DNA of 64,000 nucleotides from an uncultured Saprospiraceae bacterium. GTDB lineage: Bacteria; Bacteroidota; Bacteroidia; Chitinophagales; Saprospiraceae. Below are positions 24,401-61,267 of this stretch, piece after piece. A program made the translations under genes and the position numbers. Position 1 is the stretch's first letter. The number at the start of each line of letters is the position of its first letter. The stretch is from positions 1 to 64,000 of the forward strand of contig CALFDU010000028.1 of NCBI GenBank assembly GCA_937950315.1. The letters are read 5' to 3'. The notes beneath the pieces are model-generated. The model made no database searches, was not told the DNA's origin, and saw only the letters and a program-made list of their open reading frames with translations.

Positions 24401-25618
24401 GCCACTTACATGATAAAGACCATCTGGTGTTTCATTAATCAACACACCAAAAGGGCCTGTTATATCATAAGATACATTATCAGAACATGAGTCAGTAATG
24501 TGATCTGGTGGAGGCATAATGAAAGAACCTTCACAACCCCATGGATCAACTGATACCGTAACATTGTTGGCCGTAATATAAGGACCATCTGAACTACCGT
24601 TTTTAATCAACTGAGTAAATTCATGAGATTCAGCTGTACACCAATCAGTGTACTGCCATTTTCTGATTACTTTCTGTATATCAGGACAAGCATCACAAGC
24701 AGGAACTACAACATCAGTCTTAGTTACTACAATATTACAAAGTGTACTTGTTATAGGTTTACCATACAAAGTAGGATACGCATAACTATTTCCATATGCA
24801 GTTGCAAGGTGATAAGCTTCTTCTTCCTCATCTTCAGTTGTCGCTAATGCCAACAATTCATCAAGTTTTAATTGATAATAGTGTTGATAAATTTCAGTCA
24901 TTGAATGACCTGAAGTACAAGGTAGTTCAACGGGACTCATTGGGTCAGTGATATCATTATAAACATCAATCGGATCAACCGTATATTCCATTAGACATGA
25001 AGTAGACTTGTTGCCAAAGGCATCAGTCACAACATAAGATCTATGAATTTTGGTTGGATTACAAGGACCACTTTCCACGATCTCATCGTGATATCCTAAA
25101 TATGTAGTTGAACAATCAGTAAAAGTTGGAACAGGCACATTTTCATAGCCGTCTAACATTTCTTCCATCCCTGCGCATGTAACTTTTAAGTTACAATCAG
25201 GATCATTGTTTCCTACTGGACAAGGGCAATCTAAAATCTCTGGTGGTAGCTTGTCTTCTACTACTAGAGTACCCCAGCAATTATTGTCCCAACCTGAAAT
25301 CGTTTCAGTAATGGTAACATTGTAAATGCCAGGTTCTGTAATTATAAGTCCAGTTCCAGAGCCAGTCATGGTTGAAATTGAAATCTCATAATTAGATAAA
25401 TCATTGTAAGGTGGTGGATAATTCGACTCACCTTCCAAAATCATGTCGGGCGTCACATAGACAGTGCAGTCTGCATCCATTGAGATGTTGACTCCATTGT
25501 TACACGCAAGCCAACTGGTTGGAATCTGTGCTTTTGATTCCCCGACAATCAAAAGCAATAGGATTAAAGTAATACCCATAGGTATACAATAGTGCCTAGC
25601 CTTATCGGTTCTAAACAT
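21434..25618 (-). CDS. Cys-rich Ig-like surface protein with dockerin-, cohesin-like and T9SS type A domains
   Basis: This encodes 1394 residues. The signal peptide ends near E-S-K-A-Q; a second ATG 13 codons in is possible. Residues about 30-1000 are Cys-rich Ig/HYR-like modules with phrases such as D-G-C-G, V-D-C-E-T-D and C-G-N-V-V-S-C. A carboxypeptidase-regulatory-like strand set (about 1000-1045) precedes a dockerin-like double EF-hand (about 1050-1120, D-A-N-N-D-E-K-I-S-A-I-D-L). A cohesin-like beta domain (about 1190-1300) and a type A sorting domain (N-S-P-N-P-F-N-E-S ... G-V-I-Y-Y-Q-L) follow. It is likely a surface structural protein or adhesin. A GNRA-like hairpin sits in its leader. 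Confidence 0.88.
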   Translation of the reverse strand: MFRTDKARHYCIPMGITLILLLLIVGESKAQIPTSWLACNNGVNISMDADCTVYVTPDMILEGESNYPPPYNDLSNYEISISTMTGSGTGLIITEPGIYNVTITETISGWDNNCWGTLVVEDKLPPEILDCPCPVGNNDPDCNLKVTCAGMEEMLDGYENVPVPTFTDCSTTYLGYHDEIVESGPCNPTKIHRSYVVTDAFGNKSTSCLMEYTVDPIDVYNDITDPMSPVELPCTSGHSMTEIYQHYYQLKLDELLALATTEDEEEEAYHLATAYGNSYAYPTLYGKPITSTLCNIVVTKTDVVVPACDACPDIQKVIRKWQYTDWCTAESHEFTQLIKNGSSDGPYITANNVTVSVDPWGCEGSFIMPPPDHITDSCSDNVSYDITGPFGVLINETPDGLYHVSGVPKGVHTFYYNAYDCCGTSNSVPVTVTVLDATPPVAIATETLVVSLTTAVGGTGIAKVFAQSVDKGSHDGCGPVRLEIRRDDQNCDFVGNTTYNNDGHDFDDEDDLDNGEFVKFCCSDLDVNGVDEDGDGINDYSLYKVWLRVWDDGDMDGVYGSEGDHFNEAWANIRLENKVPPSLLCPANITVDCETDIHDLSIVGSASGYSTCGSTDVQYVDEHQDGSSCGYGIIHRKWFITDNPNQFCIQVINQLGPDTDDGITVYFPEDYEIDCMTDTMPTPFWDAPSCNLLAYSVDSDTFYFTDGACLKIRNAWTVIDWCQYEPNDLVPTGIWEHTQIIKVIDNTAPIMGTCDLEMYEANDFNDADGDGVTCENNAVMLTQTAEDVGDCGSNRINWTVQIDLYSDWNYEYTFRSTVPPNHPEYIAPTLSGGVIRVEIPDGVPGSMHNHRVKWTATDGCGNVVSCSQDFMVVDKKAPTPYCINVSSALMDDGEIELWACDFDLGSFDNCTANSDLRFTFSDVNPSLDPNYNTSSQCSSRTFTCAEAIDATGQATPVEVTVYVWDEKDNFDFCTVYLTLVDNNGACGGVTANSRIGGQIVTESGEELTQISVELMSSIPEYPLFANTDSDGEFAFYDIPMFIDYQINSTKDDDYLNGVTTLDLVLIQKHILGLNELDGPYKMIAADANNDEKISAIDLIELRKLILGVNAELPKNDSYRFPIKNQGMSNTNPWPFIETIEIDGLNADMMDNDFIGVKIGDVNGSAVHGLQADGDTESRNLGLVDLYYEDVISNIESISVPVKLNNDISLNGMQFTIHHPTSKLLRIEGGSLGVQADNYALTDSGTTTFSWNTGKQLDLTKEEVLFVMVFEGDQIGSLSITDDVLHAEAYVGEELQTFDVSLNQTSSKLVNELYQNSPNPFNESTIIGFSLAKAGNVNVKFYDLSGKVIKTVNGDFNAGINQMVISAKDMQSSGVIYYQLEAEGFIATRKMIIIE

Positions 25619-26254: not shown

Positions 26255-28339
26255 TTATTCAATAACAACAAAAGGTTTGAGTTTTACTTGCCCATTATTG
26301 ATAACCTTCAAATAATAAGTTCCATTCGCTAAATCATCAATTCTTAATCCCTTTGAATCTTGAACATTCATATTAAACTCTTTTTGGACATTTCCATCAA
26401 GGCTTAAAATCGTAATATTCATTTCCCCTATTACATCCACCTCAAATTCCAGATTGATTTCACCTACACTTGGATTAGGATAAATAGAGTATTCAAGCAA
26501 TTCAGGAGGTGATAAGTTTCCTACACAAGCACTTGGTACATCCTCACTCCAATCGGATGAACTGTTTCCAGAACCATCATACTCAATTACCGAGCCTGTC
26601 GAAAAGGAAGGAACAAAATCACCTGCTGTCCATATGCCAGCCGAAATTGCAACACTTGCTCTCGTGTGTCCTGAAGAACCCCATTCAACATAATCAAGTA
26701 TACTCCCTGAGTTACCAAATTGAGCATTTGAATAAAGTCCCATCTCTCCATCGTTTTCCGAAAGGTTGAACGTCGCAACTACTGTAACAAATTCTCCTGG
26801 ATCAAGAATTAAATCATCTCCACATAGTATGGTCAAATCTACAATTTGATCATATGCAGGGAAATCACAAATCCAATAAGAAGATATATCTACACTCGTA
26901 TTTCCAACATTTAAAAATTCGATTTCGTTGTCACTGCTAATTTCATTTATTACAATTGGGTTTCCAACTTCCTCCTCTCTAACCACAGTAATGAAGTTTG
27001 AAGAAATATCCTCACACGCATCATCTGTCAATGTAGATATGTTTTCTCCAACCACTGGATTAGGTAATCCTTGGTAACTCCATCCCCATACTCTGCATGT
27101 TCCTGCAGGGGCTCCACTTGCATCTATCGTGTTGCCATTGGCTGAATTTACCCAGTCTAATATAATGTCGTTGTCATCTGTAATAATGTACCAGTAACTC
27201 AAGAAGTTTGCAGTCGTCGTATGTGTTACATCAAACACGATATCTCCCGCTGTTCCTGTGTACGTAGTTCCGCCACCGGCCAATGCTACAGTTCCGCCAT
27301 CTGGTATTTCTCTATACACTGTAATTGAATTTGACAAATCAAAGTTGCCTGATAAATCTGTCAAGTTGTTACCTGCTACCAATCCTGTCAGACCTGCCTC
27401 GTAACTGATGTGATAAATCAAACATACTCCTGCTCCCGCTTCGTCAAAATCTACAACTTCAGGTGTCGGTGGTAGACCCAAGATATTTCCTTGGTTATCT
27501 GTCACTATGTACCCATTACTTGGACCTTCATTTCCTGACAATGTTATTCCTGACACATTATCTGTTACTCCATCTACACAGAATACAAATGGTCCTCCTT
27601 CTAATTGTCCTCCATTTACTACAACTGGATCCATAACTGTTCCTGCAACAACTGAAATATCTTCCAAGTCCCAAACACTTTGAGAAGCTCCATTTCCTAT
27701 TGGACAGTATGCATGTAATTCAAAATTAAAAATGGTAGTTTCGGAAACTACAAAGTCAGGATTTGAGGTAAAATCAAATTCCTGAATGCTCCATTCATTG
27801 GTAGCAGAAATCTGGCTTTGTTCATAAATGGTAATACCATTTTTTAGAATACGAACACCAAAGTAAAGTGGATAATTATTGTCTCCACTAATTCCATCTA
27901 TCCAATCAAATGTTTCAGGTGCTAACTCATAGAAGCTAAGCTGCTGTAATTGAGCCTCCTGATTAGCTAAAGGTTCTAATTGAATATCGAATCGTACTGC
28001 TCGATCATTGTTAGCAGTATAATTACAAGAAGGATCATAAGATACACACATTGCTTCTGTTCCATTTAAACCTGGTGTACATGAATGTCCATTAGTCGTT
28101 GGATTATTTCTATATAAATGATCTCCAACTAAAGATAAATTTACTTCTGTCCCATTAATGATACTTGCAGTAAATTCAGAAAAATCTTGATTTGTTCCAT
28201 TTGAAGTGTACGATGTGCACTCATCCAAATTAAAAATTAATGTCGAAGGGTTTCCTTCCTCCTGTGATGCAGTCAATTGATTAACTGAAAACAGCATTGA
28301 GAGAAAAAAAAGCATTCTATAAAATTTTACTTGACTCAT
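26255..28339 (-). CDS. Surface protein: lectin-like N-domain, two SNPI-type repeats, lamin-tail domain, T9SS type A domain
   Basis: This encodes 694 residues with a signal peptide (cleaved near L-T-A-S). Residues about 30-235 are clearly homologous to the same region of the giant protein at 47416-54147 (shared S-F-Y-E-L-A-P-E-T-F, H-S-C-x-P-G, W-D-x-D/E). Two copies of that protein's repeat follow (about 240-455; Y-I-V-T-D-N-Q-G-N-I-L-G-L-P, then F-D-L-S-N-S-I-T-V). A lamin-tail domain (about 458-600, I-V-I-N-E-I-S-S-D-N) and a type A sorting domain (S-I-Y-P-N-P-S-V-G) complete it. It is likely a surface-anchored adhesin. The two genes appear to be diverged duplicates differing in repeat number. 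Confidence 0.88.
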   Translation of the reverse strand: MSQVKFYRMLFFLSMLFSVNQLTASQEEGNPSTLIFNLDECTSYTSNGTNQDFSEFTASIINGTEVNLSLVGDHLYRNNPTTNGHSCTPGLNGTEAMCVSYDPSCNYTANNDRAVRFDIQLEPLANQEAQLQQLSFYELAPETFDWIDGISGDNNYPLYFGVRILKNGITIYEQSQISATNEWSIQEFDFTSNPDFVVSETTIFNFELHAYCPIGNGASQSVWDLEDISVVAGTVMDPVVVNGGQLEGGPFVFCVDGVTDNVSGITLSGNEGPSNGYIVTDNQGNILGLPPTPEVVDFDEAGAGVCLIYHISYEAGLTGLVAGNNLTDLSGNFDLSNSITVYREIPDGGTVALAGGGTTYTGTAGDIVFDVTHTTTANFLSYWYIITDDNDIILDWVNSANGNTIDASGAPAGTCRVWGWSYQGLPNPVVGENISTLTDDACEDISSNFITVVREEEVGNPIVINEISSDNEIEFLNVGNTSVDISSYWICDFPAYDQIVDLTILCGDDLILDPGEFVTVVATFNLSENDGEMGLYSNAQFGNSGSILDYVEWGSSGHTRASVAISAGIWTAGDFVPSFSTGSVIEYDGSGNSSSDWSEDVPSACVGNLSPPELLEYSIYPNPSVGEINLEFEVDVIGEMNITILSLDGNVQKEFNMNVQDSKGLRIDDLANGTYYLKVINNGQVKLKPFVVIE

Positions 28340-46131: not shown

Positions 46132-46800
46132 CTACTTCAAGTCGTCCTTGAAAATTTTGGCGACTTTTTCGACTTTTGGTCTACTGACTGCTCTTACATA
46201 TCCTTGATTGGGATTGTTCCAATAGAAATCTTGGTGGTATTCTTCTGCTACCCAAAAGACATCGTAGGCAGCAACCTCTGTGACGATTCCTCCATCAAAG
46301 GCATGCTCGTTGTACTCAGCAATCTTTTTATCAATGATTGCCTTTTGTGATTCTGATTGGTAATACAGACCTGAACGATAAGATTCCCCTACATCAGGAC
46401 CTTGCCGGTTTAAAGTTGTCGGGTCATGCGCAACAAAAAACACGTCTAGGATCTTTTCAAAACTGATGATTTTAGGATCGTACACCAGATACACCGCTTC
46501 CGTGTGACCTGTCGTGTGTGTACAAACTTCTTTATAGGTTGGATTTTGTGTATGTCCGGCAGTATATCCACTGATGGACTCCACGACTCCATTTATTTGC
46601 TGAAAAGCTGCCTCAACGCACCAGAAACATCCGCCGGCGACGACGGCTGTTTCGTATGCATCAAGGTCTTTTCCATTGAGATAAGTGTCAATATCTACAA
46701 TGTCATTACTTGGCTTCTGTGGCTTGGTCTGCTCAGTGGTATTGCAAGCTTCAGTGGCAAAAAAGAAAAGAACTAAGATTGATGATATTAACATTTTCAT
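46132..46800 (-). CDS. msrA: Peptide-methionine (S)-S-oxide reductase MsrA, probable lipoprotein
   Basis: This encodes 222 residues. A short hydrophobic N-terminus ends in A-T-E-A-C, a weak lipobox, so it may be a lipoprotein in the periplasm or outer membrane. The catalytic G-C-F-W-C-V-E opens the domain; G-Y-T-A-G-H, Y-K-E-V-C-T-H-T-T-G-H-T-E-A-V and Y-H-Q-D-F-Y complete it. MsrA reduces methionine-S-sulfoxide in oxidised proteins, with the first Cys as nucleophile. It starts 6 bp after the FKBP stop, so both envelope-quality proteins are cotranscribed. Confidence 0.94.
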   Translation of the reverse strand: MKMLISSILVLFFFATEACNTTEQTKPQKPSNDIVDIDTYLNGKDLDAYETAVVAGGCFWCVEAAFQQINGVVESISGYTAGHTQNPTYKEVCTHTTGHTEAVYLVYDPKIISFEKILDVFFVAHDPTTLNRQGPDVGESYRSGLYYQSESQKAIIDKKIAEYNEHAFDGGIVTEVAAYDVFWVAEEYHQDFYWNNPNQGYVRAVSRPKVEKVAKIFKDDLK

Positions 46801-46806
46801 TGTGTA

Positions 46807-47262
46807 TTAATTAAAACTATTAAGTTTCACATTAAAGGTAATTACCCCTCCTGCTTCAATGGCCGAACCTGCCGGTGGATTCTGTCCATACCCCAATCTT
46901 GCTGGAATATATAAGTCTACCTCGCCGCCCTCTCCAATCAGTTGAAGACCTTCTCCCCAACCTATAATCACTTGATTTAATGGAAAACTGATATCTTCAT
47001 TGGCGTCGAATAAAGTTCCACCCAACGTCCGTCCTACATAATCAACGTTTACTGTGCTTGAAATGTTCGGCTTATCTTCACCTCCTGGTTCGATGATGGT
47101 ATAAAAAAGTCCTGTTTCCGTCATTTCCGCTTCCAAGCTATTGTCGACCAAATATTGCTCAATCTCCATGATATTTCTATCAAAAGTCTCAGCTTGCGTC
47201 TCATCTTGTTCACATCCTGCGAATAAAAACCCAACGAATAATAGTATTGTTAATTTTTTCAT
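46807..47262 (-). CDS. FKBP-type peptidyl-prolyl isomerase lipoprotein
   Basis: This encodes 151 residues. The signal ends in a good lipobox (L-F-A-G-C), so the mature protein should be lipid-anchored. After a short linker (E-Q-D-E-T-Q-A-E) comes the FKBP fold: V-N-V-D-Y-V-G-R-T-L-G-G-T-L-F-D-A, V-I-I-G-W-G-E-G-L-Q-L-I, and L-G-Y-G-Q-N-P-P-A-G. It speeds proline isomerisation in envelope proteins. It forms a two-gene operon with msrA. Confidence 0.92.
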   Translation of the reverse strand: MKKLTILLFVGFLFAGCEQDETQAETFDRNIMEIEQYLVDNSLEAEMTETGLFYTIIEPGGEDKPNISSTVNVDYVGRTLGGTLFDANEDISFPLNQVIIGWGEGLQLIGEGGEVDLYIPARLGYGQNPPAGSAIEAGGVITFNVKLNSFN

Positions 47263-47415: not shown

Positions 47416-50400
47416 TTAATTAACTTTTATGAATCTTTCTAATTTTTCTGATTTGTAAGAGCCCATCAACAATAGATAAGCACCTGAATCATATTGCGAA
47501 ATATCGACACTTATTACTTTATCATCTGGATTAACATCCATACGCTCGACCATTCGTCCATTCATATCTCTGATCATAATAAATCCACCCTTTCCTTCTG
47601 GAATCGCATTGATGTTGATATTCAAAACATCTGTTGCCGGATTAGGATACATATAGAAACTTACTGGCGCATTTGCAACTACACAACCATCTGTAACGCT
47701 TACAGGATTAGATAAAGCAAAACAAGTTGACCATTTATTGATATTAAATCCAACTGCGTAGTTATTAATTGGTTCGTTGTAACAAACACTGTATACCAAC
47801 ATATTGCCTGATCCATCTCCTATGTTATCAAGATCAACCAAAGTATCTGATTCAATCGCAAGTATATCTCCGTTCAATCCAGTAAATACCAGATCGCAGC
47901 TTGATCCAACATTATTGGTCACAACAAATTCTGTAAGATCGGATATTCCATCAAAGCTACAGATATCCATTGAGGTACCTGAACCTGTGAAAGTTAGATT
48001 TCCTCCTGAGACAAAGTTTTTGAATACCTCAATCGGTGTAGATAATCCGAAGCATCCGGTAAGATTTACTTTATTCAATCCAACTTCCAATCCTTCCAAT
48101 CCTGGGGCATAAGTAATATGATACAGATGACAAGTGCTTGGACCAAAACCTTCCAAATCAAAATCAGGACCTGTAGGTAAATCCAAAATCACTCCTGCTT
48201 CATCTGTCAACAACCATCCTTCAAGATATCCTGAAGAGTTGTCAGACAATATCGTTGTGAATGGATCCGGCGCGCCATCTCCACTACAAATTGTAAACGA
48301 GCTAAGACCATCTTCCGTAGTAAGGTTACCACCAAGAATGGCTTCTCTATTTACTTCAATTGAATTGGAAATATTAAAACAACCTGAAAGTGCATCTAGA
48401 TTTGATCCAACAAAATCTCCATCAAGAGGACCGTGCCATGCAACAAAATAAATATAACATACGCCCAATGGTGCTCCTTCAAAATTAAAGACATTGCTGT
48501 CTTGGACAGCTAAAATATTTCCAAGTGCGTCAGTCAAAATGTACTCTGTAAATTGACCATATGAAGTTGAATTAATTACAACTACTTCATCTTGAAGGCC
48601 ATCGCTAGAACATACCGTTATTATGCTTCCAATGTCTGTAGTAATTGTTCCTGCATCAGAAACATTTGCATTCACCTCAATTGGATTAGACAAATCAAAA
48701 CAACCTGACAAAGATGTAAGTGGCCAATCAACAGCAAGACCCGCAAGACCATCTCCGTAGCAAATATTATAAATGTAGCTCGTAGAAGATGTGCCCGACC
48801 CTGTCAAAGCAAATGGAGGACCCGAAGGCAAACTTGTAATCAAGCCATCTTCATCTGTTATAACCCATGCACAATTGTCACCACTGTTGCCAGTCAATGT
48901 TACATCTACTGTAAAAGTATTTCCACTATCTAAACAAACATCAACTACTGTAGCACCATCAGAAGAAATCATTCCTCCTTCTGAGCTTGATCTTATGATT
49001 GTAATAATATTAGAAAGACTGTGGCATCCGATAAGGTCAGCAACATTCAATCCAACCACGACACCGGCCAAGCCTGACTGGTATGTGATACATTGAATAT
49101 AACATACTCCAACATCGGCTCCTTCAAAATCAAAGGTGTTGTCTGACATGATTGCTAAGATTATACCGTTGTCATCTGTTACTACACATTGTGTGAACGG
49201 TCCAACAAAATCTGTATGCTCTACTGTAATTAAATCTGGTTCGCCATCGCCAACACAAGCAAGGAATGTTGTTCCTTGATCCGAAGTAATCATTCCTCCT
49301 TCTGTTCCATTTTTGGTAATTGTGATAGGGTTTGATAAATCAAAACATCCTGTCACGCCAGATACATTTGCCCCTATGGTAGCTCCATTGATTGATCCAG
49401 AGTATGAAAGATTCCAAACCTGACATACACCCGTTGTTCCTTCAAAATCAAAAACATTGGTAGCTGGTAAATCAAGTATGTTCCCATCGGTATCGGTTAC
49501 AACCCAAACTGATGTCCCAATATTTCCCGTAAGGTTAACAGTAAACGCATCTGACTCTCCGTCACTTGTACAAAATGTAGCCTCGGTTGTACCGTCGGTC
49601 AAACTGATTGTTCCACCTTCAGATTCTGTTCTTATGACAGTAATCCAATTGGACAAATCATGGCAACCTTGTAGTGATAGTGCGTTCTCTCCTACTCCCA
49701 ATCCTATTAAACCATCTTCGTATGAAAGATGCCAAATAAGACAAGTTCCAATTCCTACATTTTCAAAATTAAATGAGTTGGATGTTGCTAATTCAAGAAT
49801 AACTCCATCGGCGTCTGTTACCAACCATTGTGAATTTGTACCATCGTTTCCGGTAAGGGTAACATCTATTACGTCATCTATCCCATCGTTTACACAAATG
49901 GATATATCAGATCCTAACGGTGTAGATATGTTTCCACCGTTGGCACTTTGCTTCGTTACAATTATTTGATTTGAAAGATCATGACATCCACTGATGTCTG
50001 CTGTATTTGAACCCACTGAAACGCCTGATACTGTTCCTGAATATGCAAGGAAAAATATTTGACAAGTGCCAGTTGGGTAATTATTAAAGTTAAATGGTGG
50101 ACTTCCCGGAGTATCTATGATATTTCCTGCGGTATCTGTGATCAACCATGCTCCAGCAGTACTTGCGTTGCCTTGAACATTTACATTTACGAAATCGCTA
50201 TTGCTATCTCCAACACAAAGGCTGGTTTCAAACGTGCCGTCATCCAATGAGATGAGGCCTGCATCCGCTTGATTTCTCACAACAGTAATCGGATTAGATA
50301 AACCAAAGCATCCATCAAGATTTGCTGCATTGGCACCCATCGAAGCTCCTGTCAAAGTTCCTTCATAGCTTACATGCCATATCTGACATATTCCAGCTGG

Positions 50401-53400
50401 TGCTGCTTCAAAACTAAATGGTGGTGCTGCTGGTAATTCCAAGATATTTCCTTGATCATCTGTAATGATCCATTGGTTGCTTGAACCTGTATTTCCTGTG
50501 ACGACTGCATCAACAGCCATTGAGTTTCCATTTCCTACGCACACCTCAACAGTCGAACCTAAGGTTGAAGAAATTGAACCTGCTGTGACTGAGGTCAAAG
50601 TCAAAGGCACCCCATTGGAAAGCCCAATACATCCTGACAACCCAGCAATTGGTGCTCCAGTCGACAATCCATCGACAGGACCGCTAGAAGCAAGGTGATA
50701 AATGGTATATTCTCCCTCATTGACATTTGTAAAATCAAAAGTCGGAGAACTTGAAATATTTTCTATTCTATTTGATGCAGCATTAACCAAAAGGAATTGT
50801 GAATCTGCTCCTACATTTCCAGTAATGGTATAACTAACAATACCAGATTGAGCTGGTATACATAATACATTTAGTGGCGCAGTTAATGTACCAGCAATTA
50901 CTTCTGACCTTACAACTGAGATTGGATTTGAAAGTCCAAAACAGCCAGAAAGAGCAGATACATTGTCACCGACTTGTCCACCCACAAGACCTGCCTCATA
51001 GGTTAAGTGATAAAGATTACAAGTCCCTGCTCCCGTTCCTTCAAAGTCAAATGGAAGCGTTGCATTTGCGTTTAATATGTTGCCATTGGCATCAGTCACC
51101 AACCAAACGTTGTTGGCTCCTGTGTTTCCTGTTACTACTGCATCTACTAAATCTGGAACTCCATCTCCAACACAAGCGCTGATTGTACTTCCTTGTGTTG
51201 AACTGATTGAACCAGCGGTGATATCAGCTGTTGAAACCGTGACTGGATTTGAAAGCGCAAAACATCCGCTTACTTCGCTGAAATCTTGTCCATTGGCAAG
51301 ACCTCCTAAACCTCCATTGGAAGATACATGGTATACCGTATATGTTCCTGCAGCAAAAAAGCTAAAATCAAATGTTGGAGAAGTTGAAACTGAAACGATA
51401 CTTCCGCTATTATTTACCAATACGTATTCTGATAGTGGTGATGTTATTCCTGTCGTATTAAAACTCAAAGCAGTTTGTCCACCCGCCAAACAAATAGATT
51501 GAGAAGGCGTTGTAATGGTTGCTGCATCAAAACTCTGTCTTACAATGGTCACTGGATTAGACAAATCAAAACAACCAGAAATATTTGCTGCATTCTGTCC
51601 AACCACATCTCCGGTTACTCCACCGGTAGAAACCAATTGCCACACAAGGCAAGTACCAGATCCAGCCGCATTGAAGTCAATGGTTGTTCCTGTTTGTGTT
51701 TCTAATATATTTCCTGCTTCATCGGTAATAAGATAGTTGACCGTAGTTCCAAACTGTTCGCCAGTTAAATTTAATTCGTAAACAGCATTTGTGTTGTTCA
51801 GACAGACAGAAATACTTGTCTGGCCATTGATATCTATGTTGGAAGCTTGCACGCTTGTTTTATCCACCAATATTGCATTGGACAATCCAATACATCCTTC
51901 AATATCATCTACATTTTGTCCTATTGCTAAATTGGTCTGACCTACTGATGATAGGTGATAAACAAAACATAAGGGCTGATCTACTCCTGCGAAAGTCAGA
52001 GGTAAGTCGTTCTGCACGGTTAACACATTATTATTTGCGTCAGCGATAATCCACTGAGAGCTTCCAGAATTTCCTGTAATTGATGGTGTTAATGACTCAC
52101 TTGATCCTTCACAAATTGTGAAAGTTCCAGTTCCATCAGGCGTAGAAATTGTTCCTGCAAAAGCTTGGTCTCTTCTAACTGTAATCCCATTGGATCTCAC
52201 ATAACAACCTGTAATATCGGTCAAGTTATTACCTACAACTGCTCCGTCTAAATTATCTTCAAAATGATACTCATAAAGAAGACACACTCCTGCTCCAGCT
52301 CCAGCAAAATCGAATGGTGGATCACCCGCCGGTACATCCAATATATTGCCAAATTCATCTGTAATAACATATGTTGAGTTTGGCGCATCGCCACCTACAG
52401 ACTCAACGTCTACCATAGCAGGTTGGTCTGAATTTATACAAAGAGTAATAGAAGTACTTCCATTTACCGTCAAAGAAGATGGTGATATCTCTGCTTTTGT
52501 AACGTTGATAGGATTGGACAAAGAAAAACATCCAATGATATCAAAAATTGATTGCCCAATGGCAAAATTCTGCAAGTTACCAGCAGTCATGATTACATAA
52601 ATCTGACATTCATCAAATTGTATGCTGTTTAAATCTATCGTGTTAGATGGTTGTGATTCAAGGATTACACCTGTGGTATCAGTAACAAGATACACTGCTC
52701 CACCTTGACCTCCTACTACATTCAGCGTTACGATTCCATTCACACCTGCACCGCATAATTCAAGTGAAGTTTCGCCATCGATATCGATGACTGAAGGGCT
52801 TGTGTTGAATACATTCACTGTGATAGGATTAGACAATCCATAACAACCATTGATACTTGAAATGTTGTCACCAACTGAAGGTACTATACTGGCATCATCA
52901 GCGGTCAAGTGATATATGAAATTGGTAGAAGTTGAACCTGTAAAATCATATGGAAGTGGAGCATTGATACTGATGACACCGCCTGATGCGTCAGTAAGAA
53001 TCCAATAATTAAACGCTCCTTGGTTGCCTACGACTGTAGGGTTTACCGTAAAATTGGTATCATCTCCACAAAATTGAATATCTGTACTTCCATTGACTGA
53101 TATAGAACCAGGCATGGCCAATTGTCTGTTTACAGTTACTGGATTAGAAATATCAAAACATCCTTCAATTCCTGAAATATTGGCGCCAACTTCTGCTCCT
53201 ATTAATGAACCTTCATGTGCTATTAAATACACCTGGCACACACCTGCACCCGCGTTTGTAAAGTCGAATGTTGGACCTGCTCCTGGTAAAGCAAGTATAC
53301 TGCCTGCATCATCAGTGATAACATAGGTTTGCAATTGAGAAACCGTACCAGTACTTAGGAAAGAAACTGAGTTTGAAGCAGTTCCATTGATACAAAGATT

Positions 53401-54147
53401 TGTTTCTACTGCACCACCATAGGTTGTTAGATCACCAGCGATGAATACTCCATCACCACACTCAGAAACAATTTTTAGTTCGTCAATATCCCAAGCTTGA
53501 ACACCGTAACCATTACCGACAAAACAGTATGGAAGGATTTCAAAGCTAAAATTGGTAGGAGTATTTACTAAGAATGCTGGATTATTAGAAAAATCAAATT
53601 CTTCTAAAGTCCATTCTTGAGTTGTACCTATATTATCTTGATGAAAAACTTGTATACCATTGGCAAAAACAGTCACAGCGTATCTTGTAGGATGGTTGTT
53701 TGGGCCAGAGATACCATCCACATACTGGAAAGTCTCTGGAGCTAGTTCGTAAAATGATAATGATGACAATCTACCTACGCCTGTTGCGTCTGGCGTTACT
53801 GTAACATCAAACTTCAATGCCTGAGACTGGCCAGGTTGGTAAAAACATCCTGCGTACGAGTTAATACACATTGCAATACCACCATCTACACCGGGTGCAC
53901 AAGAATGTGTATTCTCTGTAGGAACATCTCTATACAGAGTCGGATTGATCATTGATAAAGTTGAACATCCATCAGAATTGAAAATTGAAGGAACAAACTC
54001 TTCATAACTTTGATGGGTGCCAAAATTAAAATTTGAAACACATTGTTCAAAATCCCAATGGATTGTGGATGGATTTCCTGCCATCAAGGCATTTGTGCAT
54101 AAGAGAAAAAATAATGCAAATAATGATTGTTGTAATCGTAGCGTCAT
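47416..54147 (-). CDS. Giant T9SS surface protein with 18 tandem SNPI-type repeats
   Basis: This encodes 2243 residues. I chose the ATG at 54147 because it opens a clean signal peptide (L-F-A-L-F-F-L-L-C-T-N-A-L-M-A); an upstream ATG at 54201 adds a second hydrophobic stretch. Residues about 25-232 are a lectin-like domain shared with the 26255-28339 protein. Eighteen tandem units of 104-109 residues follow (about 235-2150). Each has an early Cys, then (W/Y)-x-(I/V/L)-T-D-x-x-G-x-I-L, a C-x-I-Y-H-like strand and G-C-F-D-L-S-N-P-I-x-V. I do not recognise this repeat in a named family. A type A sorting domain ends the protein (M-Y-P-N-P-A-T-D-V). Likely an adhesin or surface-layer protein. Confidence 0.88.
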   Translation of the reverse strand: MTLRLQQSLFALFFLLCTNALMAGNPSTIHWDFEQCVSNFNFGTHQSYEEFVPSIFNSDGCSTLSMINPTLYRDVPTENTHSCAPGVDGGIAMCINSYAGCFYQPGQSQALKFDVTVTPDATGVGRLSSLSFYELAPETFQYVDGISGPNNHPTRYAVTVFANGIQVFHQDNIGTTQEWTLEEFDFSNNPAFLVNTPTNFSFEILPYCFVGNGYGVQAWDIDELKIVSECGDGVFIAGDLTTYGGAVETNLCINGTASNSVSFLSTGTVSQLQTYVITDDAGSILALPGAGPTFDFTNAGAGVCQVYLIAHEGSLIGAEVGANISGIEGCFDISNPVTVNRQLAMPGSISVNGSTDIQFCGDDTNFTVNPTVVGNQGAFNYWILTDASGGVISINAPLPYDFTGSTSTNFIYHLTADDASIVPSVGDNISSINGCYGLSNPITVNVFNTSPSVIDIDGETSLELCGAGVNGIVTLNVVGGQGGAVYLVTDTTGVILESQPSNTIDLNSIQFDECQIYVIMTAGNLQNFAIGQSIFDIIGCFSLSNPINVTKAEISPSSLTVNGSTSITLCINSDQPAMVDVESVGGDAPNSTYVITDEFGNILDVPAGDPPFDFAGAGAGVCLLYEYHFEDNLDGAVVGNNLTDITGCYVRSNGITVRRDQAFAGTISTPDGTGTFTICEGSSESLTPSITGNSGSSQWIIADANNNVLTVQNDLPLTFAGVDQPLCFVYHLSSVGQTNLAIGQNVDDIEGCIGLSNAILVDKTSVQASNIDINGQTSISVCLNNTNAVYELNLTGEQFGTTVNYLITDEAGNILETQTGTTIDFNAAGSGTCLVWQLVSTGGVTGDVVGQNAANISGCFDLSNPVTIVRQSFDAATITTPSQSICLAGGQTALSFNTTGITSPLSEYVLVNNSGSIVSVSTSPTFDFSFFAAGTYTVYHVSSNGGLGGLANGQDFSEVSGCFALSNPVTVSTADITAGSISSTQGSTISACVGDGVPDLVDAVVTGNTGANNVWLVTDANGNILNANATLPFDFEGTGAGTCNLYHLTYEAGLVGGQVGDNVSALSGCFGLSNPISVVRSEVIAGTLTAPLNVLCIPAQSGIVSYTITGNVGADSQFLLVNAASNRIENISSSPTFDFTNVNEGEYTIYHLASSGPVDGLSTGAPIAGLSGCIGLSNGVPLTLTSVTAGSISSTLGSTVEVCVGNGNSMAVDAVVTGNTGSSNQWIITDDQGNILELPAAPPFSFEAAPAGICQIWHVSYEGTLTGASMGANAANLDGCFGLSNPITVVRNQADAGLISLDDGTFETSLCVGDSNSDFVNVNVQGNASTAGAWLITDTAGNIIDTPGSPPFNFNNYPTGTCQIFFLAYSGTVSGVSVGSNTADISGCHDLSNQIIVTKQSANGGNISTPLGSDISICVNDGIDDVIDVTLTGNDGTNSQWLVTDADGVILELATSNSFNFENVGIGTCLIWHLSYEDGLIGLGVGENALSLQGCHDLSNWITVIRTESEGGTISLTDGTTEATFCTSDGESDAFTVNLTGNIGTSVWVVTDTDGNILDLPATNVFDFEGTTGVCQVWNLSYSGSINGATIGANVSGVTGCFDLSNPITITKNGTEGGMITSDQGTTFLACVGDGEPDLITVEHTDFVGPFTQCVVTDDNGIILAIMSDNTFDFEGADVGVCYIQCITYQSGLAGVVVGLNVADLIGCHSLSNIITIIRSSSEGGMISSDGATVVDVCLDSGNTFTVDVTLTGNSGDNCAWVITDEDGLITSLPSGPPFALTGSGTSSTSYIYNICYGDGLAGLAVDWPLTSLSGCFDLSNPIEVNANVSDAGTITTDIGSIITVCSSDGLQDEVVVINSTSYGQFTEYILTDALGNILAVQDSNVFNFEGAPLGVCYIYFVAWHGPLDGDFVGSNLDALSGCFNISNSIEVNREAILGGNLTTEDGLSSFTICSGDGAPDPFTTILSDNSSGYLEGWLLTDEAGVILDLPTGPDFDLEGFGPSTCHLYHITYAPGLEGLEVGLNKVNLTGCFGLSTPIEVFKNFVSGGNLTFTGSGTSMDICSFDGISDLTEFVVTNNVGSSCDLVFTGLNGDILAIESDTLVDLDNIGDGSGNMLVYSVCYNEPINNYAVGFNINKWSTCFALSNPVSVTDGCVVANAPVSFYMYPNPATDVLNININAIPEGKGGFIMIRDMNGRMVERMDVNPDDKVISVDISQYDSGAYLLLMGSYKSEKLERFIKVN
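47690..53450 (-). repeat. 18-unit tandem array of about 320 bp per unit
   Basis: The DNA behind the G-C-F-D-L-S-N-P box recurs every 305-335 bp, near 47700, 48030, 48365, 48685, 49010, 49333, 49650, 49968, 50292, 50613, 50930, 51247, 51553, 51878, 52203, 52515, 52835 and 53142. Units are diverged at the base level, so the array is old rather than newly expanded. Confidence 0.85.
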
Positions 54148-54189
54148 ACTTTTTGGTATCTCGATATTAATCAAAAAATAAATAGTCAA

Positions 54190-54239
54190 GTTGAATTTCA
54201 ACGTAAGTTAAAGCGCGTGTTAAAAGTTAATTTAACACG
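54190..54239. promoter_or_regulatory. Two palindromes upstream of the giant repeat protein
   Basis: G-T-T-G-A-A/T-T-C-A-A-C (54190-54202, 1-bp centre) and C-G-T-G-T-T-A-A-A/T-T-T-A-A-C-A-C-G (54216-54239, 6-bp centre) are perfect inverted repeats 43-92 bp before the start. They look like operator sites; the regulator is unknown. Confidence 0.4.
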
Positions 54240-54428: not shown

Positions 54429-55601
54429 TTAGATTACAAATCTTTTTATCTCGTTTAGCATGATACTTTTCAGCTTGTTGGCAGCTTTCAGAGCGATGCT
54501 TTCATCCGTTGGAAATGGTTTAGGGTAATTGTTTAAGCGACCTCTTGTGTGAGTGCTCAATGCCCTCTTATCTCCTTTGAATGTGCATGTGTAATCGTTG
54601 AAATCCGAAGTTACATTAAAGCTGTTGCTGTTCACCAACTCGGTTGTTCCTGCGTCGTAAAACTTAATCAGACCACCTACGTTTGCCGACTTCGTTCTAT
54701 TTATTTCTAGTACGTCTGCGTGTATCCAAACCATTTTAGGTTTCTTGATATCGTTACCCAAAGTATCTTTCATTACGTTTCCATTTTTATCGAATACATA
54801 CTTCCATCCATCCTGTATCTCTTTTCGGTCTCTGTATTCCTTCACAAATTCTCTTTCAGGGCTTATATGCAAATCTGTAATTTCCATTTCGGCAACCATA
54901 TCGATCTCTGCAAATGAAGGCTCAATGGTAAAATACTCTGTCCACTGGTCGTTTAAAGATTTCACGTTCAAGGCCAACATTGCTTCTTCAAGGTTTATCG
55001 GCATTGCAACCAATGATCTATTTTCTGTTCTTACCAAGATCCGCGTTGTCCCCAAGAACAATGCCTTTTCTTTAAGGCTTTCGACATCATTGTAATGTCT
55101 GTAATGTCTGTTGACTTTATTCAATTCCGTGTATGCTTTTCTTGCAGCCCATTTGTTTCCTGTCTCGGCTTTCGCCAAATGTTCATTCGCCAATTTATAG
55201 TGATAGGCTGCTGCTTGTTTGGCCGTTTCCCTGATCAATCCATCTACTTTGATAAACTTAAATTCAGCTCTATATCCATCTTTGCCTACCAATGGCAACA
55301 ATGGTAATAAGGCATTTTGTCTATTTTTCACATCTGCATAGATGTCTAAAATATGATCATAGTTTTCTGGACGATTTTCATCACTCAGGAATTTAACTCG
55401 ATCTAAATCTCTCTTTAATGCTTTGTGATAAGCTTCTTCAAGCAGCATTATCTTTTTGGTTGATTTGTTCTTATCACCTTCAATCTGTCTTTTTGCAATT
55501 ACAATTGCTCTTTCGTAATCACCGCTCTCAACTGCTTTGTTGATTGACTGGCAGCTGCTAAGTAAGATGATCGTGGTCAGTGTGTATAGAATCCGTTTCA
55601 T
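54429..55601 (-). CDS. Lipoprotein of unknown function, helical N-half and beta C-half
   Basis: This encodes 390 residues. The N-terminus ends in a good lipobox (L-L-S-S-C). Residues about 20-200 are helical and TPR-like (E-S-G-D-Y-E-R-A-I-V-I-A-K-R-Q; L-A-N-E-H-L-A-K-A-E). The C-terminal half alternates strands and charged loops (V-W-I-H-A-D-V-L-E-I-N-R-T-K-S; G-L-I-K-F-Y-D-A-G-T). No catalytic motif is visible and I do not recognise the family. It stands alone with its own terminator, and three phased TTAACT boxes lie upstream. Confidence 0.75.
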   Translation of the reverse strand: MKRILYTLTTIILLSSCQSINKAVESGDYERAIVIAKRQIEGDKNKSTKKIMLLEEAYHKALKRDLDRVKFLSDENRPENYDHILDIYADVKNRQNALLPLLPLVGKDGYRAEFKFIKVDGLIRETAKQAAAYHYKLANEHLAKAETGNKWAARKAYTELNKVNRHYRHYNDVESLKEKALFLGTTRILVRTENRSLVAMPINLEEAMLALNVKSLNDQWTEYFTIEPSFAEIDMVAEMEITDLHISPEREFVKEYRDRKEIQDGWKYVFDKNGNVMKDTLGNDIKKPKMVWIHADVLEINRTKSANVGGLIKFYDAGTTELVNSNSFNVTSDFNDYTCTFKGDKRALSTHTRGRLNNYPKPFPTDESIALKAANKLKSIMLNEIKRFVI

Positions 55602-57723: not shown

Positions 57724-60700
57724 TCACTTCACTCGTTGTAACTTTCCAATGGCATTGTTTTCACCATCGGTAAGCCAAGCAATGTACACTGTCTCCTCTT
57801 TGAACCATTTACCTAACTCTTCTTTATCCTTCTTCAACAGTACTTCTAGGTCATCGTGGAAGATCACAACTTGATGTAAGTTTACTATTTTAATTGTCTG
57901 TTGCTTTGATTCATCCAAACTTTTCTTCAGATCATCTATTAAGATCATAAGCTTATCTGTCACTTCGGCATCATTTACAAAGTTAACCGTGCCGCCTGAA
58001 GCAAAAGTAGTTGTCACACAATCTTCGATTTCAGCAACAAAATCTTGATTTGCTACAACTTCAAAACCATTATCTAGTTCGATTTCATCTCCGGCAAAAA
58101 AGACTACTTGAGATGGTTCATCCACTAAGGCTGTTGACAAAATTGTCTCTTCTGCAGAGGTTGTATTTTGTGTAATTGAATTTATGACAATATTGACTCC
58201 ATCACAAGGTTGGCAACCTTCATCAATGAGACCATCACAATCGTTGTCTTGGTTATCACAAATTTCGGTATTGCCTGGATAGTTTTGGTTGTTTGCATCG
58301 TCACAATCATTACCACCGACGACGGTCGGGTCACCTACCCAAGTGGCATTATTGAAATTACATTCTACATATCCATCATTGTCGTTGTCTACTTCATTGG
58401 CAGGAATTCCTGATAGGTTACAATTATTACGCTGACCATCACAAATTTCTGGTGCTCCTGGATAAACAGAACCATCTGAGTCATTGCAATCATTCCCTCC
58501 TATTACAGAGGAGCTTCCTACCCAAGTGGCTACATTGAAGTTACATTCTACGTAACCATCATTATCGTTGTCTACTTCGTCTGTAGGAATTCCTGATAGG
58601 TTACAATTGTTTCTTTGACCATCACATAATTCACTTGCACCTGGATATACTGTATTGTCAGAATCATTACAATCATTACCTCCGATCACAGAACCACTTC
58701 CAACCCATATTGCTGCATTGAAATTACATTCCACATAACCGTCATTGTCGTTGTCCACTTCATTGGCCGGAATTCCGGACAAATTACAATTATTACGTTG
58801 TCCATCGCAAAGTTCAGGTGCTCCGGGGAAAACAGTATCGTCAGTATCATTACAATCATCACCACCAATCACTGATCCACTTCCAACCCATATTGTTATG
58901 TCAAATTCACATTCCACATATCCATCATTGTCGTTGTCAATTTCATTCGCAGGGATTCCTGAAAAGTTACAATCATTTCGTTGTCCGTCACAACGTTCTG
59001 GTGCTCCGGGGAACACGGTACCATCGGTATCATCACAATCGTTTCCTCCGATGACCGAAGGGCTACCAGCCCAAGTGGCAGCATTGAAATTACATTCAAC
59101 ATATCCATCACCATCGTTATCCACTTCATTCAATGCCAATGTGCCTATCAAACAATTATTAATCTGCCCATCACATACCTCAATCGCACCAGGGAAAACA
59201 GTATCATCCGCATCATTGCAATCATCATCATTGCCTACATATCCATTAGGCGCAGTGGTGGCATCCAATGTATTGTTAGGATCACCGAATAAATCACCAT
59301 CAAAATCTCGATACCAAGTGATAAGAGGCGTTGAACAAGATCCATCGTCAATGTTTGCATTTGGATCAAAATTCCCTGCTCCAGGATCTGTACATCCAAA
59401 GATAGGTTCAAAATCAGATAAAAATACAACACCATAATCTTCCACTTGGCTATATGATGGATTTTCACAAGGTCCTGAAACTCCTATATCGTGTATAATT
59501 CTGAACCTAAGTATTTCATCTTCTAATGGACTTGAAGCCGTAGTAAATGGCAACGCATAATTTGCTCCACCACTATTCAAATTAAAGTTGGCTTCCAACT
59601 CTCCTCCATCATTAAAATCACCATCACCATTGTTGTCTATATAAATTCTAACACTTGTGTTGCTGTTCCCTTGGGTACCTACAATGATATCATAATCGGT
59701 ATCGACTTCTAAATTAAATATTTGCTCACAAGCGAAATCTTCATATCTACCAGCAGCAGCGGCATCGTCTGACGGATTAGAAACATTTTCTAAGCTTACC
59801 AAAACAATCCCTCCCGCTCCACCAGAGCCAGAAGGCGTACAAGGATTGGATGGTTCATCTTTTACATCAACATATGAAAAGAATTCACCAGATCCTGCAC
59901 CATTGGTTGAAGTAATTTTTACAAAATGTTGTCCTAACGTATTAAAAGTTACAGTCTCTTTTTCTTCTATAGAAGTAGCGGGAGTACCATTATCAAACTC
60001 CCAATCCCTTGTCGCACCATATTGAGATTGATCTTCAAATTCAACCTCTCCGCCTACACAAGTGATTATGGTTGACTGAAAGAAATTTCCTTCTGGTATT
60101 CCATTATCACTACACGGATCCAAATATCCTATTGAGTTTATTCTTGCATCTATATCATTCATAGAAGCAGATGACCAATTGGAAGTTCCAACAACCGAAG
60201 GAGCCATAATAGCAACTGTTCCTGATGCATCATGATTTGCATCCCAGTTGTGACCTATTTCATGAGACACCATCACTTGCAATAACAATCCATTGCCAGA
60301 AAAATTTTCCAATAAATGGTGCCATCCAGGCGTATAAGCAACTCCTATCACACCAAAATTTCCATTTGCTTGGATATTTCGATCAGTCCAGAGTCCTGCC
60401 ATTTGATAGTTGATACCAAAACCACCACTTGCACCCCCGGAAGAGTTTCCACCTCCGTTGCCCCAATCATCAAAATCATTCAGTAAATCTTCCGCATCAT
60501 TGGTAGAAGGAAAAGGGTCTGCCCCAGCTGTAGCAGGAATAAAGTTTGCTACCACATCGTATTCAACATTTGTGTCAAACTCAGATCTATAATTTTCTTG
60601 TACCGTGTTTAAAACAGCTAAGTTGAAATCCTCTACATCTCCAACACTTCCAAATTCTGTTACCATGTCAAAGGTGTTGGCAATAGCGTAATCTACAAGC

Positions 60701-61242
60701 ACACATTCATCGGTTATAAATTTTGAAGGATTTAATTCTCTTGTTTTTCTTTCTACCGTTTCAACTCCACAGACATGCTCATCATTTTCAATCACGTCGA
60801 AATCATAATAGGAGACAAACAAATTTCTAGGGGCAGATTTATCATAATACCTTACTGGTTCGATAAACAATTTACTGTTCCCCTTTCTCACATATCCAAA
60901 AATAAAATCATCGCTGATTGTGAGCGCAATTATTTCACCTCGATCAGAGTGCCCTCCAATCAAATGAGGAAGATTTTTTTCTCTATAGCTTACGGCTAAA
61001 TTGTTGGGGAAAGCCGAAAATTCAAAATCTCTGATTCCTGTGTTTAAGGTAAATGCCTGAACATTTTCAAAATCCAAAGAAGATTTTTGAATATCCATTT
61101 CAAAGACATGATATCTTTCTAAAGTAGAGTTTAAAATTTGATCATAACCATGATCAGTAATTGTGGTTCCAGTAAGGTTATTTTGAGCAAATAATCCTAA
61201 AAAGGTCAATAAATTCAGACAAACTAGTAAAATTAATCTCAT
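57724..61242 (-). CDS. Secreted reprolysin-like (M12B) zinc metalloprotease with PKD, GEVED and repeated metal-binding motifs
   Basis: This encodes 1172 residues from the ATG at 61242, which starts the signal peptide; an ATG at 61257 is also in frame. After a propeptide region the protease carries H-E-I-G-H-N-W-D-A-N-H-D (His327, Glu328, His331, His337) and an I-M-A-P Met-turn. A PKD domain (about 387-465), a GEVED domain (about 494-604), a G-C-T-D-P-G-A motif and six tandem 60-residue putative metal-binding units (about 640-1014, G-G-N-D-C-x-D-x-D-x-x-x-x-P-G-A) follow. Then comes a three-coathanger-like segment (about 1016-1075) and an atypical lysine-rich tail. No standard T9SS type A domain is visible, so its export route is unclear. 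Confidence 0.85.
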   Translation of the reverse strand: MRLILLVCLNLLTFLGLFAQNNLTGTTITDHGYDQILNSTLERYHVFEMDIQKSSLDFENVQAFTLNTGIRDFEFSAFPNNLAVSYREKNLPHLIGGHSDRGEIIALTISDDFIFGYVRKGNSKLFIEPVRYYDKSAPRNLFVSYYDFDVIENDEHVCGVETVERKTRELNPSKFITDECVLVDYAIANTFDMVTEFGSVGDVEDFNLAVLNTVQENYRSEFDTNVEYDVVANFIPATAGADPFPSTNDAEDLLNDFDDWGNGGGNSSGGASGGFGINYQMAGLWTDRNIQANGNFGVIGVAYTPGWHHLLENFSGNGLLLQVMVSHEIGHNWDANHDASGTVAIMAPSVVGTSNWSSASMNDIDARINSIGYLDPCSDNGIPEGNFFQSTIITCVGGEVEFEDQSQYGATRDWEFDNGTPATSIEEKETVTFNTLGQHFVKITSTNGAGSGEFFSYVDVKDEPSNPCTPSGSGGAGGIVLVSLENVSNPSDDAAAAGRYEDFACEQIFNLEVDTDYDIIVGTQGNSNTSVRIYIDNNGDGDFNDGGELEANFNLNSGGANYALPFTTASSPLEDEILRFRIIHDIGVSGPCENPSYSQVEDYGVVFLSDFEPIFGCTDPGAGNFDPNANIDDGSCSTPLITWYRDFDGDLFGDPNNTLDATTAPNGYVGNDDDCNDADDTVFPGAIEVCDGQINNCLIGTLALNEVDNDGDGYVECNFNAATWAGSPSVIGGNDCDDTDGTVFPGAPERCDGQRNDCNFSGIPANEIDNDNDGYVECEFDITIWVGSGSVIGGDDCNDTDDTVFPGAPELCDGQRNNCNLSGIPANEVDNDNDGYVECNFNAAIWVGSGSVIGGNDCNDSDNTVYPGASELCDGQRNNCNLSGIPTDEVDNDNDGYVECNFNVATWVGSSSVIGGNDCNDSDGSVYPGAPEICDGQRNNCNLSGIPANEVDNDNDGYVECNFNNATWVGDPTVVGGNDCDDANNQNYPGNTEICDNQDNDCDGLIDEGCQPCDGVNIVINSITQNTTSAEETILSTALVDEPSQVVFFAGDEIELDNGFEVVANQDFVAEIEDCVTTTFASGGTVNFVNDAEVTDKLMILIDDLKKSLDESKQQTIKIVNLHQVVIFHDDLEVLLKKDKEELGKWFKEETVYIAWLTDGENNAIGKLQRVK
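58230..59270 (-). repeat. Tandem 183-bp repeats in the protease gene
   Basis: The phrase encoding D-N-D-N-D-G-Y-V-E-C recurs at about 58371, 58554, 58737, 58920 and 59103, exactly 183 bp apart, with high base identity. The units are one uninterrupted reading frame. Recent expansion or homogenisation is likely. Confidence 0.85.
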
Positions 61243-61267
61243 ATTGAATGTTAACATAATGAAGAAA

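Follow-up and report, generated by a model that had tools for sequence, protein, structure and literature searches.

The questions raised by this locus are what kind of protein is encoded by an 18-copy tandem repeat that belongs to no named family, and which partners the conserved cysteines of its units have. The repeat lies on the minus strand of the window, that is, the whole stretch of 64,000 nucleotides analysed here (positions 1 to 64,000 of contig CALFDU010000028.1, GenBank assembly GCA_937950315.1), which comes from an uncultured, marine-type Saprospiraceae bacterium. From the sequence of the protein and its relatives, it is probably a rod of immunoglobulin-like (Ig-like) domains exported by the type IX secretion system (T9SS), in which neighbouring domains are stapled to each other by disulfides and which carries a predicted binding tip.

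A single open reading frame (ORF) occupies positions 47416-54201 of the minus strand and encodes 2261 amino acids from its first codon, TTG; the ATG at residue 19 (54147) is the likely start codon. The product consists, in order, of a signal peptide (residues ~19-42, by inspection), an N-terminal domain of ~215 residues (residues 40-254; 53440-54084), 18 tandem units (residues 252-2172; 47686-53448), of which unit 1 spans residues 252-360 (53122-53448) and unit 18 residues 2063-2172 (47686-48015), and a type A T9SS C-terminal sorting domain (residues 2184-2257; 47431-47652), all encoded on the minus strand. A preliminary description of the window had claimed 18 tandem units of 104-109 residues, which agrees with the array found here apart from a slightly wider length range of 103-110 residues; its extent was right for the array and left out the N-terminal domain, the signal peptide, the sorting tail and the cysteines at residues 248 and 2173. 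The tail matches PF18962 (39.2 bits, cut-off 27; E 8.5e-10) and TIGR04183 (26.2 bits, cut-off 23; E 5.7e-6), and SprA of the T9SS translocon was found in the same genome (491.6 bits, cut-off 200) on a broken contig. The repeat protein therefore shows both features of type A cargo, a sorting domain on the one hand and a signal-like N-terminus with the translocon in the genome on the other. Export to the cell surface by the T9SS is supported by the sorting tail, in line with the surface location proposed earlier.

The units are marked by 18 terminal boxes, [GT]CxxLS[NT], at residues 347 to 2159, one every 103-110 residues. A profile built from the units recovers all 18 of them, with E-values for single units in the genome as low as 6e-42; thus the repeat is not a chance pattern. 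The units align end to end with a mean pairwise identity of 33% (range 21-57%) and the array was not detected as a DNA repeat by Tandem Repeats Finder, which together indicate that the copies are old. Each of the two outer cysteines is present in 18/18 units, and the third (column 70) in 13/18. The latter lies in the strand that the preliminary description had given as C-x-I-Y-H, a motif that proved variable. Other units have Tyr, Ser, Leu or Phe at column 70, as a packing position would show. A free buried thiol at this column would be unusual on an extracellular protein. In addition, units 14, 15 and 18 have one extra cysteine pair apiece, which in unit 18 is Cys2102/Cys2140.

Searches of Pfam and NCBIfam with the full-length protein and with all 18 units one by one gave no match above cut-off in the repeat region, and thus none to SprB (PF13573), PKD, HYR, cadherin, Big, DUF11 or fn3. 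The sequences in the PDB contain no credible relative of the unit or of the N-terminal domain. It had been stated before that the repeat fits no named family, and indeed no match in these three collections accounts for the conserved positions. Matches to ScfRs, RamB and Y_Y_Y were below cut-off. Weak matches of the unit to the mistletoe lectin B chain (E 0.002-0.007) were taken as chance, because they span only 60-70 columns in the region of the W-x-I-T-D-x-x-G strand pair and conflict with the predicted Ig-like fold. The members from Flavobacteriaceae gave scattered, incoherent profile matches, in which no stretch passes alone except the T9SS tail; a Lamin-Tail-like stretch below cut-off lies outside the units. 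Tandem Ig-like surface rods are a known kind of structure, and the family of this unit is unnamed in the libraries searched.

By profile column, the first and last conserved cysteines of the unit are Cys19 and Cys96. A bond between them inside each unit was assumed at first, and was dropped when the patterns of cysteine loss within units were compared with those at junctions. Among 850 distinct units joint loss of Cys19 and Cys96 within one unit was never seen, and since they are never lost together in a unit, a simple internal Cys19-Cys96 bond is disfavoured. The within-unit tables show no association, be it in the discovery set (774/48/50/5, p 0.37) or in all units (957/114/111/34). Loss of Cys19 in unit i accompanies loss of Cys96 in unit i+1: at the non-redundant junctions of the discovery set both cysteines were present in 660 cases, neither in 28, and only 11 (9 + 2) were discordant (Fisher test, 6e-40). 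Over all data, 982 of the 1003 junctions are concordant. If a unit without Cys19 is written A and a unit without Cys96 is written B, the arrays alternate A and B in just this register, and many of them begin without Cys96 and finish without Cys19. Because of this alternation the opposite register, Cys96(i)-Cys19(i+1), looked plausible as well; it leaves 38 discordant junctions, and the discordant junctions together with the behaviour of the array ends favour Cys19(i)-Cys96(i+1).

Under the junction rule, Cys19 of a last unit must have its partner outside the array. In 70 of 71 such arrays a cysteine was found within about 22 residues downstream, usually in a TGDDC-like motif, and where the last unit is without Cys19, no cysteine follows in 13 of 14 arrays (p 2.6e-13, with 2 exceptions). 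Mean-field direct coupling analysis of 705 tandem pairs placed Cys19(i)-Cys96(i+1) at rank 1 of 20,525 column pairs, and the intra-unit 19-96 pair at about rank 19,000. The other strong couplings, 3-98, 9-103 and 17-106, correspond to strand A running parallel to strand G; because of this arrangement, Cys19 and Cys96 are expected at opposite poles of the domain, C-terminal and N-terminal respectively, where consecutive domains meet.

To see whether the rule holds in other sequences, we used Flavobacteriaceae genomes collected after the rule was fixed; a few Flavobacteriaceae arrays were already in the discovery set, so that the test set represents new sequence and not a wholly new clade. At its junctions both cysteines were present in 88 cases, neither in 44, and a single one was discordant (132/133 concordant, p 1e-34), and within units the two losses were again unassociated (48/48/48/27). 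In 2,000 within-protein shuffles of the Cys96 states the mean number of discordant junctions was 40 and the minimum 25. On this set alone, direct coupling ranks Cys19(i)-Cys96(i+1) 1 of 18,571. The held-out arrays show patterns such as BABABABABA, BooooA, XXBA and XXXXX, which correspond to pairwise, continuous, partial and absent stapling, and this diversity of array patterns is a stronger argument than the p-values. The coupling of Cys19(i) with Cys96(i+1) is shown by these data. We consider it likely that the family follows a stapling grammar, in which each domain is bonded to the next and an array is either closed at its ends or carries caps there. Lineages would change from one mode of stapling to another, be it continuous (oooo), pairwise (BABABA) or absent (XXXX). 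This switching presumably sets stiffness and protease resistance.

The structure of units 12 and 13 (49309-49947) was predicted by AlphaFold2 using 90 tandem pairs. The model is all beta, with a predicted local distance difference test score (pLDDT) of 97.5 and a predicted template modelling score (pTM) of 0.85, and agrees with the beta-domain proposed in the preliminary description. In comparisons by Foldseek and VIA-align it matched tandem Ig and FnIII domains, cadherins, S-layer Sap domains, the biofilm scaffold RbmA and fragments of GhpA, with no single known family prominent in the match list. For Ig and FnIII domains, which fill the match list, the Z-scores were 7-8, with a maximum of 8.3, over 163-170 aligned residues with a root-mean-square deviation of 4-5 Å. 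Since such Z-scores are near the level common for beta sandwiches, Ig-like is used here for a fold class and no homology is claimed. The model supports a unit that is an Ig-like beta-sandwich of two sheets with the first strand parallel to the last. The N-terminal domain was also predicted confidently (pLDDT 94.2, pTM 0.89); its fold matches are CBM4-2, CBM22, MAM, the receptor-binding domains of iota-toxin and CDTb, and gingipain adhesin, with Z-scores of 9.3-10.8 over about 137-153 residues (best match 10.8, 152 residues, 3.3 Å). No Pfam or NCBIfam profile and no PDB sequence matched this domain. The model resembles a jelly roll, a fold often used for binding, and the domain is likely to be ligand-binding, with carbohydrate or glycan as the predicted ligand.

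In the window protein the rule leaves no staple cysteine single. Together with Cys248 (53458-53460), the seventh cysteine of the N-terminal domain, and Cys2173 (47683-47685), directly after unit 18, it pairs all 38 into 19 predicted, interleaved bonds: 248-348, 270-453, 378-558 and so on to 1972-2160 and 2081-2173. Cys248 would form the N-terminal cap with Cys348 of unit 1, and Cys2173 the C-terminal cap with Cys2081 of unit 18, the latter according to the cap rule seen in relatives. The remaining six cysteines of the N-terminal domain (54, 79, 101, 112, 119 and 226), which are conserved, can pair among themselves. In the model that we propose, the T9SS would export the protein and the tail would anchor it to the outer membrane, so that the jelly-roll domain may be held away from the cell on a stiff stalk of 18 Ig-like domains. 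Cys19, at the end of the first strand of domain i, would bond to Cys96, just before the last strand of domain i+1, and with both array ends capped the 19 bonds would bridge every junction and stiffen the rod. Since the predicted bonds are interleaved, the rod would stay covalently connected even if its backbone were cut once inside the array. We infer three things: the coupled cysteines form a disulfide within one chain, this bond makes the rod stiffer, and glycan is bound by the tip for adhesion. The earlier idea of a disulfide-linked rod is thereby supported, with one correction: the coupling places the bond between neighbours and not inside a unit, and only two of the three cysteines take part.

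Three other explanations were weighed against this model. An ordinary Ig-like repeat that resembles classic Ig domains in having a disulfide inside each unit, between Cys19 and Cys96 or with Cys70 as one partner, would suit the three conserved cysteines and the Ig-like fold, and real intra-unit pairs do exist in the family, as cysteines at columns 40 and 76 co-occur in 10/10 of the units that have Cys40. The unassociated losses of Cys19 and Cys96 within units and the very low rank of their intra-unit coupling are however opposed to it, and the alternating arrays and the end rules would be left unexplained; we regard it as very improbable. It is also improbable, though somewhat less so, that the bonds join parallel, staggered molecules in a bundle or filament. 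A stagger of one unit between parallel chains would give the same i to i+1 register, and T9SS-exported Ig-like filaments of Saprospiraceae can be oligomeric, as in the heptamer formed by GhpA, the grappling hook protein of Aureispira (PMC11205867, PMC13319060). But short lipoprotein-like members with one coupled pair (XBA, XXBA) need no filament, the coupled contacts place both cysteines at the facing poles of consecutive domains, and the two-unit model reaches its high pTM without a partner chain. The third explanation accepts the stapled stalk and takes it for a passive surface coat, a spacer or a component of a biofilm or floc matrix in place of an adhesin. RbmA and S-layer Sap are among the fold matches of the units and no ligand is known, which speak for it, whereas conservation in the family is highest in the N-terminal jelly roll, which resembles binding modules and is placed by paralogues on different stalks. 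We consider a passive role a real but unlikely alternative.

Several points weigh against the stapled, glycan-binding rod itself. Coupling alone can not separate an intrachain from an interchain bond, nor a disulfide from a shared metal site, and the disulfide is predicted from sequence coupling. The N-terminal cap predicted between Cys248 and Cys348 is the weaker of the two: 61 of 66 discovery arrays fit (p 0.17, with few variants), and L079, L009, L123 and L142 are among the exceptions. In the held-out Saprospiraceae the junctions gave 83/1/3/5 (p 7e-6), a small set with 5 joint losses and 4 discordant junctions, and an earlier held-out set (L146-L165) had too few cysteine losses to test the rule. 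All the Fisher p-values are inflated by sequence kinship and serve as a guide only. For the cysteine of column 70 no coupled cysteine partner was detectable. In the organism's own assembly, which is 96% complete and encodes these cysteine-rich proteins, no VKOR or DsbB match was found and there is a single DsbA-like domain; among relatives, VKOR was matched in only 4 of 40. Finally, the ligand binding predicted for the N-terminal domain is drawn from fold similarity.

Saprospiraceae are known for predation, floc formation and surface attachment, and many bacteria carry long Ig-like stalks. Such stalks are known to be stiffened by Ca2+ at the linkers or, within domains, by isopeptide or thioester bonds. 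If the model is true, disulfides at every junction, together with a simple rule that tells from the sequence which of the junctions are closed, would add a further way of stiffening, one that is widespread in Saprospiraceae; disulfides would then do here what Ca2+ does in RTX rods and isopeptide bonds do in pilins. We found no description of inter-domain disulfide stapling with a closed grammar in the openly accessible literature, subscription journals being outside the scope of the search. The unnamed family would gain a testable mechanism, and a design rule for covalently continuous protein rods would be at hand.

Among known systems GhpA is close in general build: its tandem Ig-like domains make up a giant protein of the cell surface, which the T9SS exports and which comes from the same order as the window organism, and its cryo-EM fragments match the two-unit model over both units with a template modelling (TM) score up to 0.45. 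However, no GhpA chain matches the repeat protein by sequence at E <= 10, and no DUF11 domain (PF01345), as in DUF11 filaments, was found in the repeat protein. GhlA of Litorilinea is described as a beads-on-a-string arrangement of DUF11 domains that may be flexible towards each other, and no disulfide is mentioned (PMC13319060). RTX adhesins project a binding tip from the cell on tandem repeats stiffened by Ca2+ (PMC4083281, PMC7493085). Their extenders (MpAFP RII, of 104 residues, and MhLap) are tandem beta-sandwich repeats of the same size that are likewise stiffened at the junctions, with the difference that RTX proteins use Ca2+ junctions and type I export and the repeat protein a predicted disulfide and type IX export. 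No RTX nonapeptide model matched the repeat protein, and its C-terminus carries the T9SS tail instead. SprB and RemA, the mobile adhesins of Flavobacterium, are likewise large, repeat-bearing T9SS surface cargo of Bacteroidota, and the relative L123 has 18 SprB repeats between units of the present family; but the units do not match PF13573. The N-terminal domain shares its jelly-roll fold with the cleaved adhesin of gingipain, CBM4/CBM22 and MAM, from which it differs in having no sequence match and six conserved cysteines of its own.

The unit is present in 170 of 248 genomes of the window's own family, Saprospiraceae, in 68 of 397 Flavobacteriaceae-type genomes, and in only 9 of 395 genomes sampled phylum-wide. 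No relative was found in viral contigs. A search with an alignment of 8 closer units for named records returned Saprospiraceae, Lewinella-type bacteria and Flavobacteriaceae such as Dokdonia, Aureisphaera, Tamlana and Gaetbulibacter. Two new domain models, one for the repeat and one for the N-terminal domain, would annotate proteins in about two thirds of the family genomes sampled. The organism's own genome has 54 unit matches, carried by the repeat protein, a paralogue in the window and further proteins on contig C104, where 14 units were found, and on contig C129, with 7 units. The paralogue (26255-28339, minus strand, 694 amino acids) has the same N-terminal domain, two units, a weak Lamin-Tail-like stretch and a T9SS tail; its first unit is without Cys96 and its last without Cys19.

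The arrays of relatives contain 1-31 units, and 73 of 78 array C-termini bear a T9SS tail. The N-terminal domain stands once in front, or bookends the arrays, as in L077, L086, L092, L100, L120, L121 and L123; partner segments include SprB repeats, CHRD, DUF11, CARDB and weak Lamin-Tail-like stretches. On contig C21 of the own genome, a protein without units (L011, 3678-8075) combines the same N-terminal domain with a PKD-like stalk and a CHU_C (type B) T9SS signal, which indicates that one kind of tip serves on different stalks and with different sorting types. Some short Flavobacteriaceae members have a cysteine near the N-terminus that resembles a lipobox by inspection (lipoprotein-like members L243, L240, L241, L236, L237 and L251). 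Among these, some have 3-5 units all without both staple cysteines and with Cys70 kept, and others a single stapled BA pair at the end.

The repeat gene is preceded by the gene of a putative lipoprotein of 390 amino acids (54429-55601, minus strand) without a Pfam match, which has a counterpart of the same size at the same place in the near relative L071 (2219-3388). Directly downstream of the repeat gene, at 46132-47262 on the minus strand, lie an FKBP-type prolyl isomerase and the methionine sulfoxide reductase MsrA, both with lipoprotein-like N-termini. As this order (lipoprotein, repeat protein, FKBP, MsrA) is also kept in L071, the folding and repair enzymes may share an expression unit with the repeat gene. 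Elsewhere in the window, a protein of 1394 amino acids (21434-25618, minus strand) adjoins the two-unit paralogue; it matches dockerin type I and its C-terminus resembles a T9SS tail. At 58337-59130, within the ORF 57724-61257 (minus strand), a reprolysin-like metalloprotease was noted that has a GEVED domain and a tandem repeat of 61 residues (183 bp) matching the putative metal-binding motif of MopE.

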